A DNA stretch of 64,000 nt. Origin: Akkermansia muciniphila. GTDB taxonomy: Bacteria; Verrucomicrobiota; Verrucomicrobiia; Limisphaerales; BJHT01. Shown here piece by piece: positions 3,662 through 63,832 of this stretch. Below the pieces are notes generated by a model. It saw only the letters and a program-made list of their open reading frames with translations. It had not been told where the DNA came from and searched no databases. The first letter of the stretch is position 1; every line of letters starts with the position of its first letter. Position numbers and translations under genes: made by a program. The stretch covers positions 62,001-126,000 of the forward strand of contig CAMAUZ010000007.1 in NCBI GenBank assembly GCA_945861535.1, in the 5' to 3' direction.

Positions 3662-3728
3662 GGCAGAAAAAGCCGGGTGCAGTTTTATGAAAACTATCGC
3701 ACCCGGCTCAGGAAACTCCAAAAACAAA

Positions 3729-3926
3729 TCACATGTCCGCGTAGCGTGCTGACAACATCGCGTTGAAGCGGGCCACTTTCATCTTGCGACGGGAGCGCTC
3801 GCTCGGCTTCTCGTAATGGCGATGGGCGCGCACTTCTTTCAAAGTGCCTTCACGGTCCAACCGCTTCTTGAGTCGGCGCAGCGCCTTGTCGATCGGCTCG
3901 CCTTTTTTCAGCTTAATCTCTGTCAA
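3729..3926 (-). CDS. rpsU: 30S ribosomal protein S21
   Basis: 65-residue, strongly basic protein matching S21 along its length: KKGEPIDKALRRLKKRLDREG near the N terminus, then RAHRHYEKPSERSRRKMKVAR. S21 sits on the 30S platform and helps initiation. The start codon is TTG, preceded by a GAAGGAA ribosome-binding site. It is transcribed toward the isomerase/flippase pair 67 nt downstream but is probably an independent unit. Confidence 0.95.
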   Translation of the reverse strand: MTEIKLKKGEPIDKALRRLKKRLDREGTLKEVRAHRHYEKPSERSRRKMKVARFNAMLSARYADM

Positions 3927-4242
3927 TTTCCTTCACTTCCTTCCGGGGGATCGGACCGGGACGCGCCTTCATGGCGGCCCGCAGGTCGGATCAAAGTGCG
4001 CGGAGCGTACGGACCACCCCCGTGGGTGTCAACGGGCAATCCGGCCGCCAAAACGCCCGCGCCGGGGGGGCGCATCCGCGCTCGCTCGCGGAGCGCGGCT
4101 GTGTCGCCGCGACCAACCGCAGCACGTTCAACCACTGCGCGGGCTGGGATTTCTCCGTATGCGTCACTGCCAGCGCGGCCACTGCGGCTGATCCCGCGCC
4201 GCGCGGGACACCGCCACGCTCCCGCCCGGTTCCCGGCTTGTC
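3927..4242. repeat. Intergenic gap with a degenerate inverted repeat (family G)
   Basis: 316 nt between rpsU and the MNT gene. Near 4094-4132 it carries gagcgcggctgtgtcgccgc plus accaaccgcagc. Near 4173-4217 it carries a decayed complement (actgcggctgatcccgcgcc ... cgctcccgc). Better copies of this family are at 48428-48549 and in the 62.6-63.8 kb element. The S21 promoter must also lie here, but I cannot place it. Confidence 0.5.
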
Positions 4243-8312: not shown

Positions 8313-8402
8313 CCGTTGGTAGGGCGCGTCTGTCCCCAGCGCGCCGCCGAACCGTACGAACGCCCCACCGGCGCGCTGGGGACAGACGCGCCCTACCAAC
8401 GG
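8313..8402. repeat. Inverted repeat (family B), perfect 34-nt arms
   Basis: Arms 8313-8346 and 8369-8402 are exact reverse complements (core gtagggcgcgtctgtcccca) around a 22-nt spacer. It lies between the divergent-side end of the helicase gene and the next gene. A second copy with the same spacer length is at 14455-14534. Confidence 0.95.
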
Positions 8403-8539
8403 CAGCCCATTCGGAAGCTCTCCGCTCGCGATCATATTTCCGTATCCCGCCCGAGTGGCCAGCGCGTCTCCGCTTCACCGCTTCAACCCATTTCCCCTCC
8501 CGCCTAATCCGTCTCCATTCGGTTGAAACCGGAATTGAA

Positions 8540-8666
8540 ACCACAGAGACACGATGAACACAGAGAAAAATGAGGGATGAAGTCGGCTTCAGGAGGTCAC
8601 CAATCAGTGAACGCAGATCGACCAGCCAATCGCTGGTTTTCTCTGTGTTCATCGTGTCTCTGTGGT
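8540..8666. repeat. Inverted repeat (family C), perfect 30-nt arms
   Basis: Arms 8540-8569 and 8637-8666 are exact complements (core ccacagagacacgatgaaca) around a 67-nt interior. The same termini bound a 0.57-kb composite element at 43079-43651, and degenerate ones bound a 1.2-kb element at 62626-63790. No target-site duplication is evident. The rest of the gap 8258-8698 shows nothing further. Confidence 0.95.
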
Positions 8667-8698
8667 GCAAATGAATCAGCCCGACTGAATGGTTGCGG

Positions 8699-9694
8699 CT
8701 AATTCACCACGTTCCGCAATCGCTCCCCGAGCAACGCCCTTCTTACCGACTGCGCGCCCTTCACCCGCATCTCCATCAGCCCCTGCTCGCAGTAAAACGC
8801 CGCGTGCGGATTCACGAGCACGCGATGATGCGCCGGATGCTTCGGGTCGCGCCACGCCTTGATCAGCGGATTGTCCGGCGACGGCGGTTCGTCCGGCAAC
8901 ACGTCGATCGCCGCGCCCGCGAGCTGCCCCGATTCAATCGCCGGCGGAATGCACGAAACATCAATCAAGCCGCCGCGCGCCGTGTTTACGAGATACGAGC
9001 CGCGCGGCATTTTCGCCACCGTGCCCGCGTTGATTATGCGGCGGTTCTCGTCCGTGAGCGGGCAATGCAGGCTCACCACCCACGACTGCGCGAGGAGATC
9101 ATCGAGCTTCTCGACGCGCCGCACACCCAGCGCCTTGTCGAACCCGTCGTTGCAGTACGGATCGTAATACGCCACGTCCATCCCGAGCGCCTGCGCGCGC
9201 AAGGCCGTCGCCGTGCCGATGCGCCCGAGGCCGATGAGGCCGATGGTCTTGCCGCGATGCCGTTCGAGCGGCACGGCCTGCCAATACATCCACGGACCCT
9301 CCGCGGCGCGCAGCCGCGAGTTCATCAGGGCAATCCCGCGCGTCAGCGAGAGCATCATGCCGATGGCCGAATCCGCGACTTCCTCGGTGCCGTAATCCGG
9401 CACGTTCGTCACCGGAATGCCCATCTGCCGCGCCAGCCGCCAGTCCACGTTGTCGTAGCCCACGCCGCCGCGCACGATGATGCGGCACTGCTTCAGGGCG
9501 CCCACCGTCTTCGCCGACAGCGCGAGGTTGTGATACAAGATCACCGCGTCCGCGTGCTCGATCTGGCCCTCAAGTTCCACTTCGTCGTGCGCATCCAGCG
9601 CCACGATGTCCGCGATGTCCCCGAGCACCTTCTGCTCCGGTTCCAACGCGTCCTTGAGGAAATCCGTGATCACCACCTGAAATTTTTTGCTCAT
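8699..9694 (-). CDS. D-isomer-specific 2-hydroxyacid dehydrogenase (CtBP-like)
   Basis: NAD-dependent dehydrogenase of 331 residues with the two-domain 2-hydroxyacid fold. The Rossmann motif GLIGLGRIG lies near residue 152. Catalytic residues are Arg in NTARGGL, Glu in PDEPPS and His in NPHAAFYCEQG. The last block and the overall length resemble the C-terminal-binding-protein branch more than SerA, and no ACT domain follows. The substrate is unknown. It is transcribed alone. Confidence 0.85.
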   Translation of the reverse strand: MSKKFQVVITDFLKDALEPEQKVLGDIADIVALDAHDEVELEGQIEHADAVILYHNLALSAKTVGALKQCRIIVRGGVGYDNVDWRLARQMGIPVTNVPDYGTEEVADSAIGMMLSLTRGIALMNSRLRAAEGPWMYWQAVPLERHRGKTIGLIGLGRIGTATALRAQALGMDVAYYDPYCNDGFDKALGVRRVEKLDDLLAQSWVVSLHCPLTDENRRIINAGTVAKMPRGSYLVNTARGGLIDVSCIPPAIESGQLAGAAIDVLPDEPPSPDNPLIKAWRDPKHPAHHRVLVNPHAAFYCEQGLMEMRVKGAQSVRRALLGERLRNVVN

Positions 9695-14424: not shown

Positions 14425-14452
14425 CCGCGGTTCTAAGTGGAAAGAACCGCGG
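14425..14452. terminator. Hairpin after the TrmN6-like gene
   Basis: Perfect 10-bp stem, ccgcggttct (14425-14434) and agaaccgcgg (14443-14452), with an 8-nt loop. No T-tract follows, so it may be repeat-derived rather than a true terminator. It abuts the next inverted repeat. Confidence 0.5.
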
Positions 14453-14454
14453 TA

Positions 14455-14534
14455 GGTAGGGCGCGTCTGTCCGCAGCGCGCCGCGGACGGGTTGGACCAT
14501 CCCACCGGCGCGCTGAGGACAGACGCGCCCTACC
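14455..14534. repeat. Inverted repeat (family B), second copy
   Basis: Arms 14455-14483 and 14506-14534 match at 28 of 29 positions around a 22-nt spacer. The arms are nearly the same sequence as those at 8313-8402, and both spacers end in cccac. Confidence 0.95.
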
Positions 14535-14626
14535 CACCGGCGGGCCTCCCAGTTTCCGACCTTTTTTGGGATTCTCCTTGGCGCGGCGACAGCGGGCGCG
14601 TAGGACAGGCGCAGTTCTTTGTTAGC

Positions 14627-20049: not shown

Positions 20050-20260
20050 GGAAAGTTCCAAGGCTAAAGCTCAAAGCTCAAGGGAAGGACCAAACCGGGC
20101 CAAGCACCAAGGACGCTGGTGCGATGCAGCATTTCCCGCTGAGAGGCGCGCCAAGCTCGCACCGGCGAAGTGTGTTTTCAGAATGCCGCTGGGATTTGCT
20201 TGGTGATTGGAGCTTGGCCATTCCCTTGAGCTTTGAGCTTTGAGCTTTGAGCTTTTTCCC
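20050..20260. repeat. Inverted repeat (family E), arms rich in 'agctcaaagctc'
   Basis: Left arm 20050-20086 and right arm 20221-20260. The innermost 19 nt (agctcaaagctcaagggaa) are an exact complement. The arms are built of a 9-nt unit (agctcaaag) repeated two to four times, so length differs between arms. The family recurs at 26371-26430 (one arm) and 55127-55450. Confidence 0.9.
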
Positions 20261-41096: not shown

Positions 41097-42920
41097 TCAG
41101 GGCGGCGGCGTAGGAATGCTGAGATACGGGGCGACGAAATCCACGTAGAGCCGGGGCGGACACTCGAAGATGACGGGCTGGCCGTCGAACACGACGGTCG
41201 CGTAGGGCCGGCGCGCCGGGGACCAGCGGCCGAACTCGACGGTGTGGGTGCGCGGGGCGCCGCCGCCGCTGACCTGGACGGAAATTTTGTGCGCGACGTT
41301 AGTGAAGCCGTACATGGCCAGGCGGTTGGTGCCTTGTGAAACCCACGACTCGGCGCGGAGCTGGCCGAGGCGGTGCAGGGATTCCTCGAGGGCGGCGGCG
41401 GTGACTAGATCAAGCGGGCCGTTGGTGTTGGCCCATTCGCCGGCGGAGTTGCGGGCGATTTTTTTCTCGCGCCCCTGCTGCGTGATGGTGACGGCGTGGG
41501 CGTTGGTGCCGGCGAAGTTCCAGATCTGGCGGTCGCGCAATTGATACAGCGCCGTCGGGAGCCTTTCGGCGTCGCCGCGCGGGACGACATAGACGGAGGA
41601 CTCGTCGTGCCGGCGCGCGTAGATGCGGTCTTTCTCGCGGGTGCCGAAATCGAGCTGCGCGAGAATCTGGTTGGTGGGCACGCCGGCGGCGTTGGTGCGC
41701 GCGGTGAGGAGCGTGTAGCGGCGCAGCGGCGAGGCGAGGCCGTAGGCGGCGAAATCGGTGACGACTTCCTTGGCCAGCTCGACGGCCTCCAACTGCGCGA
41801 GGCCGCGAAGGAGATCGGAGACGATGTTGGTGTCGGCGGCGAAGTTGAGCGGCTCGACAACGCGCCAGGTGTCGTTGGTCTGGCGGCGCAGGGCGAAATG
41901 GTCGTCGCCCTGGATTTCAATCACGTCCGGGCCGGTGGCGGGCAGCGGGTCGAGGAGGTGATGTTCCGCAAAATCCCAGTAGGGCGCGCGCAGGGGATCG
42001 AGCCAGGCGCGTGGCACGGCGACGATGTTCGTGTGGCTGAGGCGGCGGGCGAAAACGAGCGTCGCGTCGTTGGTGGGGCTTTTGCCGAATTGCACGGCGA
42101 GCAGGCGGTTGGTGCCGGCGGCAAAGCTCAGCTCGGCTTCGGGCGTGAGCAGGCCGAAGGGATCGGGATCAATCTGCGGATCGTCGCTGACGAACTGCTG
42201 CACGGGCCAGCGCTGGAGGTGTTCGAGGAGCTGCCCGAAGCGCGGGTTGTCGGCGCGCTTGGTGGGCTGCGGCAGGGTGAGGCGCCAGAGCTGGTTGGTG
42301 GCGTCACGTTGCAGCTCGAGCTGGCGCGGGCCGATGCGGATGTTGACCCGGTTGAAGTTCACGCCGGCCAAGTCGAGGAACGCGGGGCTGCGCCAGTCGG
42401 TGCTCGTGCGCGGGAGCTGGTCGAGCAGCGCGGCCTCGACAACGTGGATGGCGTTGGAGTCGCCGAGGCGCGCGTAGAATTCGTTGCCGATGGCGGTGCG
42501 GGCGCCGAGGCGCAGTTCGGTGCGGTCGTTGCCGAGTTGCAGGCGGATGACGGCGCGCGGGGGATTCAGGCCGTAGTTGGTGAGCCCGCCGGGCTGGGCC
42601 TGCCAGGTGGCCTCGGGGATGAGCGTACGCCAGCGCAATTCCGCGGTGGCGCGGGCGAGGGCTTCGATGGGCGTGGCGAGCGCGGGGTAGTTGAGCGGCG
42701 CGGTGAGGAGCCAGGCCTCGTTGGTGCGCTGGGCGCGGAGGGTGAGTTTGTCGAAGGCGACCTCGACCTGCGTGACGAGCGCGGGTTTCAGGTCGGGGAA
42801 CAGGCGCGCGAGTTTCGCGGGCGCGGTCGAGGTTTCCTCAGTGCGGCGCTCGAAGAACACGATGAAGAGGAACAGCGCCACCGCGGTGAGCACGAGCCAT
42901 TGGGTCGTCTTGGTGTTCAT
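41097..42920 (-). CDS. DUF4340 domain protein
   Basis: 607 residues. A membrane helix lies at the N terminus (MNTKTTQWLVLTAVALFLFI), followed by the DUF4340 repeats. Each begins with a block such as YGLNPPRAVIRLQLGNDRTE or GLASPLRRYTLLTARTNAAG, followed by FYARLGDSNAIHVVEAALLD or IYARRHDESSVYVVPRGDAE. These proteins are regularly encoded next to Gld-type ABC exporters, as here, and are taken to be periplasmic partners. Upstream of this Met the open frame runs 30 codons into repeat family D, which I exclude. Confidence 0.85.
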   Translation of the reverse strand: MNTKTTQWLVLTAVALFLFIVFFERRTEETSTAPAKLARLFPDLKPALVTQVEVAFDKLTLRAQRTNEAWLLTAPLNYPALATPIEALARATAELRWRTLIPEATWQAQPGGLTNYGLNPPRAVIRLQLGNDRTELRLGARTAIGNEFYARLGDSNAIHVVEAALLDQLPRTSTDWRSPAFLDLAGVNFNRVNIRIGPRQLELQRDATNQLWRLTLPQPTKRADNPRFGQLLEHLQRWPVQQFVSDDPQIDPDPFGLLTPEAELSFAAGTNRLLAVQFGKSPTNDATLVFARRLSHTNIVAVPRAWLDPLRAPYWDFAEHHLLDPLPATGPDVIEIQGDDHFALRRQTNDTWRVVEPLNFAADTNIVSDLLRGLAQLEAVELAKEVVTDFAAYGLASPLRRYTLLTARTNAAGVPTNQILAQLDFGTREKDRIYARRHDESSVYVVPRGDAERLPTALYQLRDRQIWNFAGTNAHAVTITQQGREKKIARNSAGEWANTNGPLDLVTAAALEESLHRLGQLRAESWVSQGTNRLAMYGFTNVAHKISVQVSGGGAPRTHTVEFGRWSPARRPYATVVFDGQPVIFECPPRLYVDFVAPYLSIPTPPP

Positions 42921-42957
42921 GCGGCGGGGTGGTGCGGGACCGACGGAGAGGGGAAAT

Positions 42958-42992
42958 TGAAACCACGGATGGACACGGATGGACACGGATAG
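42958..42992. repeat. Repeat family D, tandem
   Basis: accacggatggacacggatg followed directly by a second gacacggat unit. A related single unit ends ogt at 1259-1281. It lies between the real DUF4340 start and a second, dead copy of that start. Confidence 0.75.
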
Positions 42993-43006
42993 GGGACGGG
43001 CCGCAG

Positions 43007-43030
43007 CCATTTGGGCGTTTTGGTGTTCAT
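43007..43030 (-). pseudogene. Duplicated start of the DUF4340 gene
   Basis: On the minus strand these 24 nt read MNTKTPKW and match the real gene start (MNTKTTQW, 42897-42920) at 21 of 24 positions. Similarity continues about 15 nt upstream of both ATGs. The frame from here stops after about 37 codons. The two starts are exactly 110 nt apart, with repeat family D between them. Confidence 0.7.
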
Positions 43031-43078: not shown

Positions 43079-43651
43079 GACCACAGAGACACGATGAACA
43101 CAGAGGAGGGCAGCCGGAATCGAACGGGTTTGGAGCGCCATTCCCGCGCCGATGGTTTCCCTGTGCCAGTGCGCGGGGCGCCCGGTTCCAGTCCCGGAGG
43201 GACGCCGGAGGAGATTAGCCGGGGGCAAGTCCGCCCCAGCGGACGCCGCCCCCGGACACCGTGCCAGGTGGCTCCGTGCCCCAGCGGGGCATCGAAGAAA
43301 TGGGCCGGGTTCCACGCCACTCACTGGCGACGCGATCTGCCCGAGGCGACGAGCGGGGGCGGAGAAGCTGCGGTCCGCGCGAGGCCAATAAATTCTCCGA
43401 TGCCCCGCTGGGGCATGTCTTGTTCGGCGTGGTAACCGGGGGCTGCGCCCGCTGACGCGGACTTGCCCCCGGCTAATATCCTGCGGTGTCCCTCCGGGAC
43501 GAAGAGCCAAGCGTCGGCGACAATCCTCCGCTGATCTCACGGTCGCCAGCGCGAAGGAAAAAACGTCGCGTTGCGCAGGGACACCCCAGAGATGCAGCAC
43601 CGAGATCTCCCTCCTTTGCTTCTTCTCTGTGTTCATCGCGTCTCTGTGGTC
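43079..43651. repeat. Composite inverted-repeat element (family C termini, family M interior)
   Basis: Termini 43079-43105 and 43625-43651 are complements at 26 of 27 positions and equal the arms at 8540-8666. Inside, a second inverted repeat (43191-43234 with 43457-43500, 41 of 44 paired; core tagccgggggcaagtccgc) surrounds a third (tgccccagcggggcatcgaa near 43273, complement near 43397). It sits between the GldG-like and DUF4340 genes of one operon. No coding sequence is recognisable. Confidence 0.9.
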
Positions 43652-43671: not shown

Positions 43672-45156
43672 TCAGTAGCGGCGGCGGAACCAGACCAGCG
43701 CGCCGAGCAGCAGGACGCCGCCGGGCAGGCCGGCCAGCACGAGCCAGCGGAGGTTGCGCATCTGGCCCTGGGTGACGGTGAGCGTGTATTCGGTGATCTT
43801 GCGCGGGCCGATTCCGCCGAGGAGCTGCGAGCGGTCGAGGAGCCAGTTGACGGCGTGCCAGGCGAAGTCGCGGTTGGCGGCGGCCTCAAGGAGTTTGTTG
43901 CCGAGAAAAAAGGAGTCGCCGGTGATGACCATGCGGGTCGAGCCGCGGTCGAGGTTCACGTCTTTGATGCTGCCTTTCTCGACGGCCACCATGAGCGGGA
44001 TCGCGCCGACCGGATCGGTGGCGGGGTTCGGGCGGGGCACGCCGTCGCGGACGTCGTTGACCGCGATGCCCTCGGGGCTGGAGGTGGCGAGTTCAACGAC
44101 CTGCGGGGCGTCGGCGCCCTGCGGCCCGGCGCGCTTGAGGACCGGGCGGGGCAGGATCAACTGGAGCGGAAGCTGCGCCTGCGCGAGCGCGCCGACGACC
44201 GGATGCGCGCCGTAACTGCCGACGATGACCGAGCTGTTGCTGCGGGATTTCTTTTCATCGACGACGACGCCTTCGCCGAAGTCCACGCCCCATTTGGAGA
44301 GCAGGCGTTCGAGGCCGGTGCGGGACTGGTAATTGAGCAGGAGAAAGAGGCGGCCGCCCTTGTTGAGGAAGCGGTCGAGCTTGTCGATTTCGCCGAGGTC
44401 GAAGGCGCGCGTGGGACCGGCGATGATGAGCAGTTGGGTGTCGGCGGGGACGTCGTTGGTTTCGGCGAGGCTGAGCGGGGAAATCTGGATGCCGTTTTCG
44501 CGCAGCAGGCTGGTGAAGCGGCCGTAGCCGTAGTCGCTGAGCGAGTTGGTGCGATCGTGTTCGCCGTGCCCGACGAGGAAGGCGGCGCGCAGGGTCTGAG
44601 GGTCTGCGACGGTGCGGATGGCGGAGGTGAAGAGACGCTCGCCGAGGAAGGCCTTGCGTTTGACCTCGTTGCTTTCGCCGCTGATGACCTTCGAGATGTC
44701 GTAATCGGAGAGGTCGGATTGCGCGACGATCTTGGTCTTGCCGCGGCACTCGAAGATGACGAGGTCCTTGGCCTGCGGCGGGAGCTTGTATTGGTTTTTG
44801 ATCAACTCGGCCTTGGCGGGTTCGACGACGTAGTTGACGACGTCGAGTGAGAGCCTGGTCGGGTTGAGGAGCGTGTATTCCTTGAGCAACTGCGACACGG
44901 GCCCGTAGAGCGTTTCGTCGGGATCGTAGTAGAGGATGATTTTCACCGGCTCGGGCAGCGACTGGAGCACCTGGACGGTGAGGGTGGAGAGTTGCTCCTT
45001 GGCGGCGAACGACAGCGGCAGGCGCGTGAAATGGCGGCTCGCGAGATAATTCAGCATGGTCATCACCGCGAGGAAGGCGATGACCGAGACGAGCGTGTTG
45101 GTGCCCACGCCCCATTTGCGGCCCGGCGAAAAGCTGTTGGGTGAATCGGCGTCCAT
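43672..45156 (-). CDS. GldG-like ABC-exporter auxiliary protein
   Basis: 494 residues with a membrane helix at each end (TLVSVIAFLAVMTMLNYLAS near the N terminus, and NLRWLVLAGLPGGVLLLGAL before a final WFRRRY). The region between matches the ABC_transp_aux / GldG fold: VKIILYYDPDETLYGPVSQL, AAFLVGHGEHDRTNSLSDYG and LIIAGPTRAFDLGEIDKLDR. In gliding Bacteroidetes GldG works with GldA and GldF; outside them the role is unknown. I start it at MDADSPNSF; the upstream open frame is a shadow of the permease gene. It follows the permease by 5 nt. Confidence 0.88.
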   Translation of the reverse strand: MDADSPNSFSPGRKWGVGTNTLVSVIAFLAVMTMLNYLASRHFTRLPLSFAAKEQLSTLTVQVLQSLPEPVKIILYYDPDETLYGPVSQLLKEYTLLNPTRLSLDVVNYVVEPAKAELIKNQYKLPPQAKDLVIFECRGKTKIVAQSDLSDYDISKVISGESNEVKRKAFLGERLFTSAIRTVADPQTLRAAFLVGHGEHDRTNSLSDYGYGRFTSLLRENGIQISPLSLAETNDVPADTQLLIIAGPTRAFDLGEIDKLDRFLNKGGRLFLLLNYQSRTGLERLLSKWGVDFGEGVVVDEKKSRSNSSVIVGSYGAHPVVGALAQAQLPLQLILPRPVLKRAGPQGADAPQVVELATSSPEGIAVNDVRDGVPRPNPATDPVGAIPLMVAVEKGSIKDVNLDRGSTRMVITGDSFFLGNKLLEAAANRDFAWHAVNWLLDRSQLLGGIGPRKITEYTLTVTQGQMRNLRWLVLAGLPGGVLLLGALVWFRRRY

Positions 45157-45161
45157 GGCGG

Positions 45162-45914
45162 TTATTTCCAGCGCCGGCTTTCGACGACCTTCAAGGTGAG
45201 GAACAGGAAGATCAGCGTGAGGCTCAGGTAAAACACGACGAAGCGCGTGTCCACCATGCCGCGGGTGAAGTCGCGCATGTGCTCGACCATCGAGATGTGC
45301 GCGTAGAGCTTCGACTGCCAGCCGGGCGTCGCGGGCACGATGATCGAGAGGAAGCTCAGCAGAAAGAGGCCGAGACCGAGCGCAAACGTGATCATCGCGG
45401 CGACGACCTGCGCGCGGGTGAGCGACGACGCGAAGCAACCCATCGCGAGGTAAAACGCGCCGAAGAGGAAGATGCCGAGGAAGGTGCTGACGATGGTGCC
45501 GGGGTCGATGGGCGGGAGATTGATCGAGTTGTAACGGAGCAGATACGGGTAGGCCAGCGTGGGCAGCCACGCGAGGAGATAGAACAACAGCGAGCCGGTG
45601 AACTTCGCCAGCACGACCTGCAGATCGCTGACGGGCGTGGTCATCAGGGTCTCGAAGGTGCCGGAGAATTTCTCAAGCGCGAAGGTGCGCATGGTGATGA
45701 CCGGCGCGCCGAGCAGCAGGATCAGCCAGAAAAAGCCGGTCATGAAAAACTTCTCGGTGACGGGCATGTCCAGCGGCTGACCGTCGGCGGATTTCAGCAG
45801 CAGCACGAAGCTCAGGCCGAGCAGCAACTGGAAGCTGGCGATGATCACATAGCCGAGGAACGAGTTGAAGTAGCCGGTGAGTTCGCGGCGCACGAGCGTG
45901 AGGTACGGTTGCAT
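45162..45914 (-). CDS. ABC-2 type permease (GldF-like)
   Basis: 250-residue inner-membrane protein with six hydrophobic helices, for example YFNSFLGYVIIASFQLLLGL, FFWLILLLGAPVITMRTFAL and FLGIFLFGAFYLAMGCFASS. The segment TFALEKFSGTFETLMTTPVS is the characteristic cytoplasmic block of GldF/NosY-type permeases. It overlaps the ATPase stop by one base (TGATG), so translation is coupled. The upstream reading-frame extension belongs to the ATPase gene. Confidence 0.9.
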   Translation of the reverse strand: MQPYLTLVRRELTGYFNSFLGYVIIASFQLLLGLSFVLLLKSADGQPLDMPVTEKFFMTGFFWLILLLGAPVITMRTFALEKFSGTFETLMTTPVSDLQVVLAKFTGSLLFYLLAWLPTLAYPYLLRYNSINLPPIDPGTIVSTFLGIFLFGAFYLAMGCFASSLTRAQVVAAMITFALGLGLFLLSFLSIIVPATPGWQSKLYAHISMVEHMRDFTRGMVDTRFVVFYLSLTLIFLFLTLKVVESRRWK

Positions 45915-55126: not shown

Positions 55127-55450
55127 AAAAAAGCTCAAAGCTCAAAGTTCAAAGCTCAAGGGAAGGTTCAAGCAGCAAGCTCCACCGGTGTTGCTCGTCG
55201 TCGCCATATCGGTCGTTGCACACGTTTGTGCCGTCCGCATCGAGGCCGCCATCTCTCTCACCTCCGTTCGGAACTGAGGAGAGGGTCGGGGAGAGGAGGC
55301 GCTCCGCGTTGCGACGGCTGCCGCACAAAAGTTCGCAATGATTTATCCTGTTCACGGATCGAATCTCGCCGAGCTGCTCCCCAATGAACCTTGGCCCTTG
55401 GCCCATGGTGCTTCCCTTGAGCTTTGAACTTTGACCTTGGAGCTTTTTTT
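55127..55450. repeat. Inverted repeat (family E), long copy
   Basis: Arms 55127-55165 and 55411-55450 pair over almost their full length (ttcaaagctcaagggaa innermost). The 245-nt interior includes ctctcctc/gaggagag-type palindromes near 55250-55300 and no gene. It separates the two pilT-like genes. Confidence 0.9.
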
Positions 55451-62593: not shown

Positions 62594-63832
62594 GCCGTGT
62601 CTATGCAGGGGAAACTGCCGAGAGGACCCCAGAGACGCGAAGAACACAGAGCGGCGAAGCCGCTACCCACGGTGCGCGGCTGTGTCCGCCGAGGACCAGC
62701 CGCAGCAGCCCCGAAAGCTCGCACGCGCCCGTTGAAATCAGAGGCGTCCCCTGCGGCCAACCCGCTGCGGCTGGTGCGCCGCGCACACAGCCGCGCTCCG
62801 GGAAAAATCCTCGTGGCGCGCGAGGATTTTGCAGAGAGGTAGTACAGAGCGGCGAAGCCGCAACCAAAAGCGGAGCGCGACCGGTCCCCGGTCGCAGCGG
62901 CATCGTTGGAGCCGGGGCGCTGGGAATTTCCAGCACCTTGGCGGGTGCGGGGCCGCTGCGGGCGGGGACCGCCCGCGCGCCGAAAACGTGCGGCCCGCGA
63001 GGCTTTTGCCGCTGCCCTGGCCGCCAGCCGGCCACCAAAGAATTGTCGCCAACGCTTTGCTCTGTGTCCCGGAGGGACCCCGTAGGAAATTAGCCGGGGG
63101 CAAGCCCGCGCCCGCGGGCGCGGCCCCCGGTTACCTCGCCGAACGGGCCATGCCCCAGCGGGGCATCGAAGAAGTTTTTGGCGGCGCACTCGCGGCAACA
63201 TCACGCCGCCGCTCGTCGCCTCCGGCAGATCGGTTCGCCAGCGATCAGCTCTCCACGCGAGCCATTTCTTCGATGCCCCGCTGGGGCATGGAGTTACTCG
63301 GCACGATTTCCGGGGGCGGCGTCCGCTGGCGCGGACTTGCCCCCGGCTAATCTCCTCCGGCGTCCCTCCGGGACGGGACGGCCGCGCACTGACCAAGGGA
63401 AACCACCGGTGCGGGAATGGCGTTCCAAACTCCTGTGGTTGCGGCTGCGCCGCCCTGTACGACGACTCTGCAAAATCCTCGCGCGTCGCGAGAATTTCGG
63501 CGCGCGGGCGGTCCCCGCCCGCCGCGCGTACGCATGGCGAAAGTCGTCCGAGAATTCCAACGCTCCACTCACTCTTCACACGCTGCGACCGGGGACCGGT
63601 CGCGCTCCGCGAGGATATTTCACGGAGCGCGGCTGTGTGCGCGGAGCACCAGCCGCAGCAGGTTGTTCGCACGGGACGCCCCTGATTTCTTCGGGCGCCT
63701 GCGCGGTTTCGGGGCCGCTGCGGCTGGTCCTCGGCGGACACAGCCGCGCTCCGCTTGGGTGGCGGCTCCGCCGCTCTGCGTTCTACGCGCCGCGACCGCG
63801 TAGGCCGGCACGGGCCGCAAGCTCCGACACTA
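62594..63832. repeat. Large nested inverted-repeat element (62626-63790) and flanks
   Basis: Over 1.2 kb without a recognisable gene. The outer ends (62626-62660 and about 63765-63790) are degenerate family C termini. Next inside, 62647-62762 and 63669-63783 are complementary over more than 100 nt and include family G arms. A module with gcgaggattttgcagag occurs on each side. Near the centre a 44-nt pair of family M (63066-63109 with 63331-63374) encloses tgccccagcggggcatcgaa and its complement (near 63150 and 63266). The interior order parallels the element at 43079-43651. Confidence 0.85.

Follow-up and report, generated by a model that had tools for sequence, protein, structure and literature searches.

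Modular, nested palindromic elements in a Verrucomicrobiota genome and their probable relation to IS1380-type MITEs

We analyzed a stretch of 64,000 nucleotides (hereafter, the window) from a draft genome assigned to Akkermansia muciniphila (7.94 Mb in 169 contigs), in which three elements of very different size are associated with copies of a 26-nt inverted repeat, the arm. Their features are listed below (TIR, terminal inverted repeat; M2 and M3, nested modules).

8504-8508, no strand: left 5-bp target-site duplication CTAAT, exact repeat of the right copy
8509-8698, no strand: complete 190-bp element, probably an IS1380-type MITE (TIR, spacer, arm, 75-nt interior, arm, spacer, TIR), with a TIR pair and an exact target-site duplication
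8509-8523, plus strand: left outer TIR, CCGTCTCCATTCGGT
8540-8565, plus strand: left 26-nt arm, consensus
8641-8666, minus strand: right 26-nt arm, consensus
8684-8698, minus strand: right outer TIR
8699-8703, no strand: right 5-bp target-site duplication CTAAT, exact repeat of the left copy
43080-43650, no strand: arms-only element with nested cargo, between the ORFs 41097-43010 and 43672-45570
43080-43105, plus strand: left arm
43191-43500, no strand: nested palindromic module M3 (TCCCGGAGGGAC ... GCCCCAGCGGGGC ... TCCCTCCGGGAC), similar to clusters that flank a RAYT gene at locus L113
43625-43650, minus strand: right arm, 1 mismatch
62595-62609, plus strand: left outer TIR (CCGTGTCTATGCAGG) of the third element, 31 bp beyond its arm
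62626-62651, plus strand: left arm of the third element, 3 mismatches
62652-62849, plus strand: M2 module immediately following this arm (CGGCGAAGCCGC ... GCAGAGAGGTAGTACAGAG)
62850-63773, no strand: additional M2-like modules on either side of a second M3 (63066-63374), in mirror-image order

The window also contains a cobalamin riboswitch (Rfam RF00174, 14641-14810, plus strand) and other palindromic repeats. A further family, GGTAGGGCGCGTCTGTCC, occurs at 8313-8402 and 14452-14537, the first copy having perfect 34-nt arms, and an inverted TTTGAGCTTTGAGC repeat family is present at 20052-20257 and 55127-55449.

Arm repeats and the outer ends of the base element

The arms of the smallest element are identical at 26 of 26 positions, with 75 nt between the 26-mers, and those of the 43080 element enclose 519 nt, which bears out the earlier note, made from the sequence of the window, that arms bound elements at 8540-8666 and 43079-43651. 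A search of the whole genome with 25 of the 26 arm bases and up to 3 mismatches gave 212 matches (107 forward and 105 reverse) and none for the reversed-pattern control. Within 1.2 Mb of stretches, the majority of them picked around listed arm matches, most arms were paired inward (50 inverted pairs vs 15 singles) at widely varying spacing: the gaps span 20-582 nt, and 75-76 nt is by far the most frequent value (23/50). Some of the repetitive DNA between the genes of this genome consists of such arm-bearing elements, and a same-genus genome, G001, contained 141 arms. An artefact of draft assembly at inverted repeats can hardly explain them: some contigs do end within these palindromes, but the same families occur between the same single-copy flanks in the separately assembled same-genus genome.

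Alignment of the flanks revealed a weaker inverted repeat, CCGTAACNATKCAGT, located ~31 bp (mostly 30-32 bp) outside the arms and resembling CCGTAACNATTCAGTC. Among 36 arm elements with recognizable ends, 17 had an exact 5-bp direct repeat at the edge of this outer TIR, compared with 2.7 expected from shuffled partners and a maximum of 8 in 2000 shuffles; no duplications of 6-8 bp were found at the outer ends of these 36 elements. The earlier note had suggested looking for target-site duplications, and they are thus present as exact 5-bp repeats. Their consensus is CTHAG, and the outer positions vary between elements and match within one (for example, TTTAG/TTTAG and CTAAT/CTAAT); this covariation ruled out a 3-bp TNA duplication combined with a G/C-ended TIR. 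The 190-bp element in the window (8509-8698) has CTAAT on both sides and a TIR pair with 3 and 1 mismatches. In the majority class the arms are therefore subterminal rather than the terminal inverted repeats that the earlier note took them for, and the true ends are CCGTAACNATKCAGT with 5-bp duplications. The base unit, which is multicopy and lacks coding capacity, comprises ~190 bp, with a TIR of 15-17 bp, a ~16-bp spacer, the strongly conserved 26-nt arm and a ~75-nt interior, followed by the mirror image. At L089 (7095-7290 and 4693-4910), other elements lie back to back with arm elements at the same CTNAG site.

Orthologous sites in G001, ~90% identical to the window's genome where aligned, provided examples of mobility. 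A 191-bp element with duplicated CTCAG (L068:10250-10440) is absent from G001, where the empty site aligns without a gap to the joined flanks of the element, differing at 8 of 131 positions. The reverse case, filled in G001 and empty in the window's genome, was found at L162 and is less clean. Empty and size-polymorphic sites agree with the earlier proposal of a single family of mobile elements that are non-autonomous and carry nested modules inside.

Could the 26-nt arms nevertheless be the termini of an unknown transposon, as first proposed? Among paralogs they appear much better conserved than the spacer or the outer TIR, a comparison that mixes left and right halves without gaps, and hairpins consisting of arms only, without an outer TIR, occur in the window's genome (72-93 bp) and, patchily, in a few other Verrucomicrobiota assemblies (~70-84 bp). 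However, ends that can be judged carry the 5-bp duplication at the outer TIR, which excludes the arms as termini of the main class, and the clean empty site breaks there as well. No consistent duplication was seen at the arm edges in the 1.2-Mb sample, and no arm-bounded transposase gene came to light. We regard this alternative as improbable.

The 43079 copy belongs to the arms-only class. It is not classed as an IS1380 MITE because the best fits to the outer TIR have 9 and 7 mismatches of 16; no recognizable outer TIR or target-site duplication accompanies 43080-43650, and this copy and several others without an outer TIR do not conform to the base unit described above. By the criterion used, outer ends were not recognizable on both sides in 14 of the 50 pairs, including 43080, some of which are merely diverged, such as L068:10281, which has a duplication. 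The site of the 43080 element in G001 has different cargo, beside a 72-bp arm hairpin. No empty site was obtained for three other arms-only copies in G001, as L059 was filled in both genomes, L063 lay at contig ends, and the flanks of L064 matched via short repeats only. A tandem CACGGATGGA repeat (42964-42990) is located ~90 bp upstream of the 43080 element, and M2 modules of G001 are also found within tandem repeats of the CACGGATGGA kind (L156 and L157).

The third element and nested modules

The ~1.17-kb third element was confirmed on one side only: its left arm is accompanied by an outer TIR, whereas the right arm assigned to ~63774 has 11 mismatches of 26, the background level of that region. 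The related palindromes noted in the interiors of the two larger elements are present in both, the segments 43191-43500 and 63066-63374 having the same order and 84-86% identity.

Additional size differences were seen in the comparison with G001. At L074, a 585-bp element in the window's genome corresponds to 126 bp in the relative, and the comparison revealed a nested composite of ~459 bp beside an arm. Another example involved L068 (~3720-4043), where a left-arm copy with a 199-bp M2 corresponds to 127 bp in G001, and at L086 a 577-bp element is matched by one of 424 bp with a different interior. Between these two genomes, the sizes likely changed by insertion rather than by precise loss. 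The start of the 199-bp M2 abuts an arm in 36 of 61 copies; the module is flanked by CAGNG on the left and terminates in GTACAG. A REP would be expected to bear a GTAG or CGTC tag on a palindrome of 20-40 bp; M2 ends in TTGTAGTACAG, a GTAG-containing tag that lies some way after the hairpin and not at its foot, and M3 sits inside M2-like sequence.

Judging from these boundaries, other palindromic repeats would preferentially land at the arm. M2 would insert just beside the ACACAG of the arm, M3 modules of the RAYT-flanking kind would come to sit within M2-like sequence, and repeated nesting would give rise to the different element sizes.

The modules belong to distinct repeat families, and one of these borders a RAYT gene at another genomic locus. 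At L113:1486-1932 (G000:C29), a gene for a 148-aa Y1 (RAYT) protein has M3-like palindromic clusters on both sides, forming a REPtron-like unit. The link to a RAYT or IS200-like transposase that the earlier note raised for these ends thus holds for M3-type clusters and not for the arm or M2; no convincing RAYT gene flanked by either was found. These observations bear on a further alternative, namely that all of this DNA, the base unit included, is of the REP/BIME type and is moved by an IS200-like RAYT transposase. In addition to the L113 unit, the genome has 9 Y1 transposase matches, and the 3′ end of M2 contains GTAG. However, the base unit has TIRs, a 5-bp duplication and ends in common with IS1380. 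Single-strand Y1 transposition (IS200/IS605) does not produce TIRs with a 5-bp duplication. We consider the alternative very unlikely for the system as a whole; it is a better match for M2 and M3 than for the base unit.

Ends common to IS1380-family transposase genes

We searched for the outer TIR across the order and found YTNAGCCGTAACNATKCAGT in 101 of 245 sampled genomes, with a control near zero. The TIR-bounded elements are ~164-242 bp in length and have 5-bp duplications (exact in 13 of 22 TIR pairs) and several unrelated hairpin-rich interiors. An Rfam search of element interiors gave weak miRNA-type matches only. One genome of another family, G223, had 456 TIR matches. Its contig C131 encodes a 463-aa IS1380-family transposase (NF033539, E=6.6e-72; PF13701), in an element whose right end is the exact TIR and whose left TIR is truncated where the contig begins; two further contig ends of this genome have a complete TIR followed by an N-terminus identical to that of the C131 transposase. 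A second example is a 1649-bp element in G084 (C1189), flanked by CTCAG on both sides, that contains a 40% identical IS1380 transposase with a broken ORF.

Because the outer ends bound IS1380-family transposase genes in these two other families of the order, we interpret the base elements as IS1380-type MITEs whose larger sizes arose from nested palindromic insertions beside the arms, a reading to which we assign a probability of roughly 85%. The earlier note saw no transposase; one that shares the outer ends exists in relatives. In this 169-contig draft, no autonomous IS1380 copy with these ends was seen, which counts against the reading, as do the 43079 copy and several others without an outer TIR; such a partner in the same genome is not strictly required of a MITE. 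As the only IS1380-like gene of the genome is a distant one (29% identical, below the family cut-off) and lacks such ends, mobilization would probably have occurred in trans, with an IS1380-family transposase moving the base unit into CTHAG sites and generating the 5-bp duplication.

An 895-bp TIR pair at L180 was considered as a candidate autonomous element and proved to be a MITE interrupted by a group II intron without an ORF (L180:3454-4140, G000:C17; RF02001 and RF00029). The intron lies within the TIR element, immediately 3′ of the hairpin GCGGCCTGAAGGCCGC. In G223, a snap-back half element (L263:1424-1516), in which one TIR end is copied as a near-perfect hairpin, shares CTAAG with the next element.

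Arm conservation and comparison with known elements

Once inserted, the elements seem to accumulate changes more slowly in their arms than elsewhere, at about half the expected rate, which is suggestive only. This estimate relies on orthologs rather than on the paralog identities: in 7 orthologous pairs, a small sample picked by the arms in one genome so that only the other, unselected branch is testable, we counted 12 arm changes vs 26 expected (p=0.003). Such slow change could indicate domesticated hairpins, with the arms having a host role (protein binding or RNA end formation) or being subject to gene conversion, which would be compatible with an IS1380 origin. Given the size and selection of the sample, and since none of 288 other sampled genomes in the phylum contained the arm (≤2 mismatches), which argues against a general host need, we see this as a minor possibility. 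In a few other Verrucomicrobiota assemblies, arms were found with TIR variants such as CCGGAAC. It is also conceivable, if doubtful, that the arm spreads on its own as a hairpin module and is subject to sequence constraint or active homogenization after insertion. In that case IS1380 MITEs differing in their TIR variants would have acquired it, and it would persist in arms-only form in scattered Verrucomicrobiota and dock other elements or a host factor.

With regard to known systems, the base elements resemble the IS1380 family in TIR length, the 5-bp duplication and the transposase family. IS1247, a member of this family, is 1672 bp long with an IR of 16/13 and a DR of 5 bp (PMC3281130). The autonomous relatives found here are about 1.5-1.65 kb in length, whereas the elements of the window are ~190 bp, lack a transposase and have a conserved subterminal arm. 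Bacterial MITEs such as RUP, NEMIS, Bcr1, ERIC and Nezha (listed in PMC3733652) are similar in size (70-300 bp), TIRs, target duplication, absence of an ORF and strong hairpins (z of about -9 to -13 for the elements described here). However, they differ from the present elements, whose interiors are exchangeable across the order while ends and length (164-242 bp) are constant, and whose arms may serve as a landing site. The likeness to GTAG/CGTC REPs, BIMEs and RAYTs (described in PMC3733652) concerns the M3-type clusters around the RAYT gene and the GTAG near the 3′ end of M2; unlike in those systems, the REP-like parts are cargo here and not the base element. Neither bacterial matches to the arm and its relatives nor an IS1380 MITE family in Verrucomicrobiota turned up in the literature covered, mostly outside subscription journals.

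The base elements are probably MITEs, a known kind, but unusually modular and nested. They represent a transposon system without genes of its own that extends across the order and has a likely enzyme; beyond REPs, the open literature searched offers little for this group. Their narrow length range, exchangeable interiors and palindrome-collecting arm let the mutual recruitment of small elements be tested, and the system allows tests of how layered palindromes in bacterial genomes arise.
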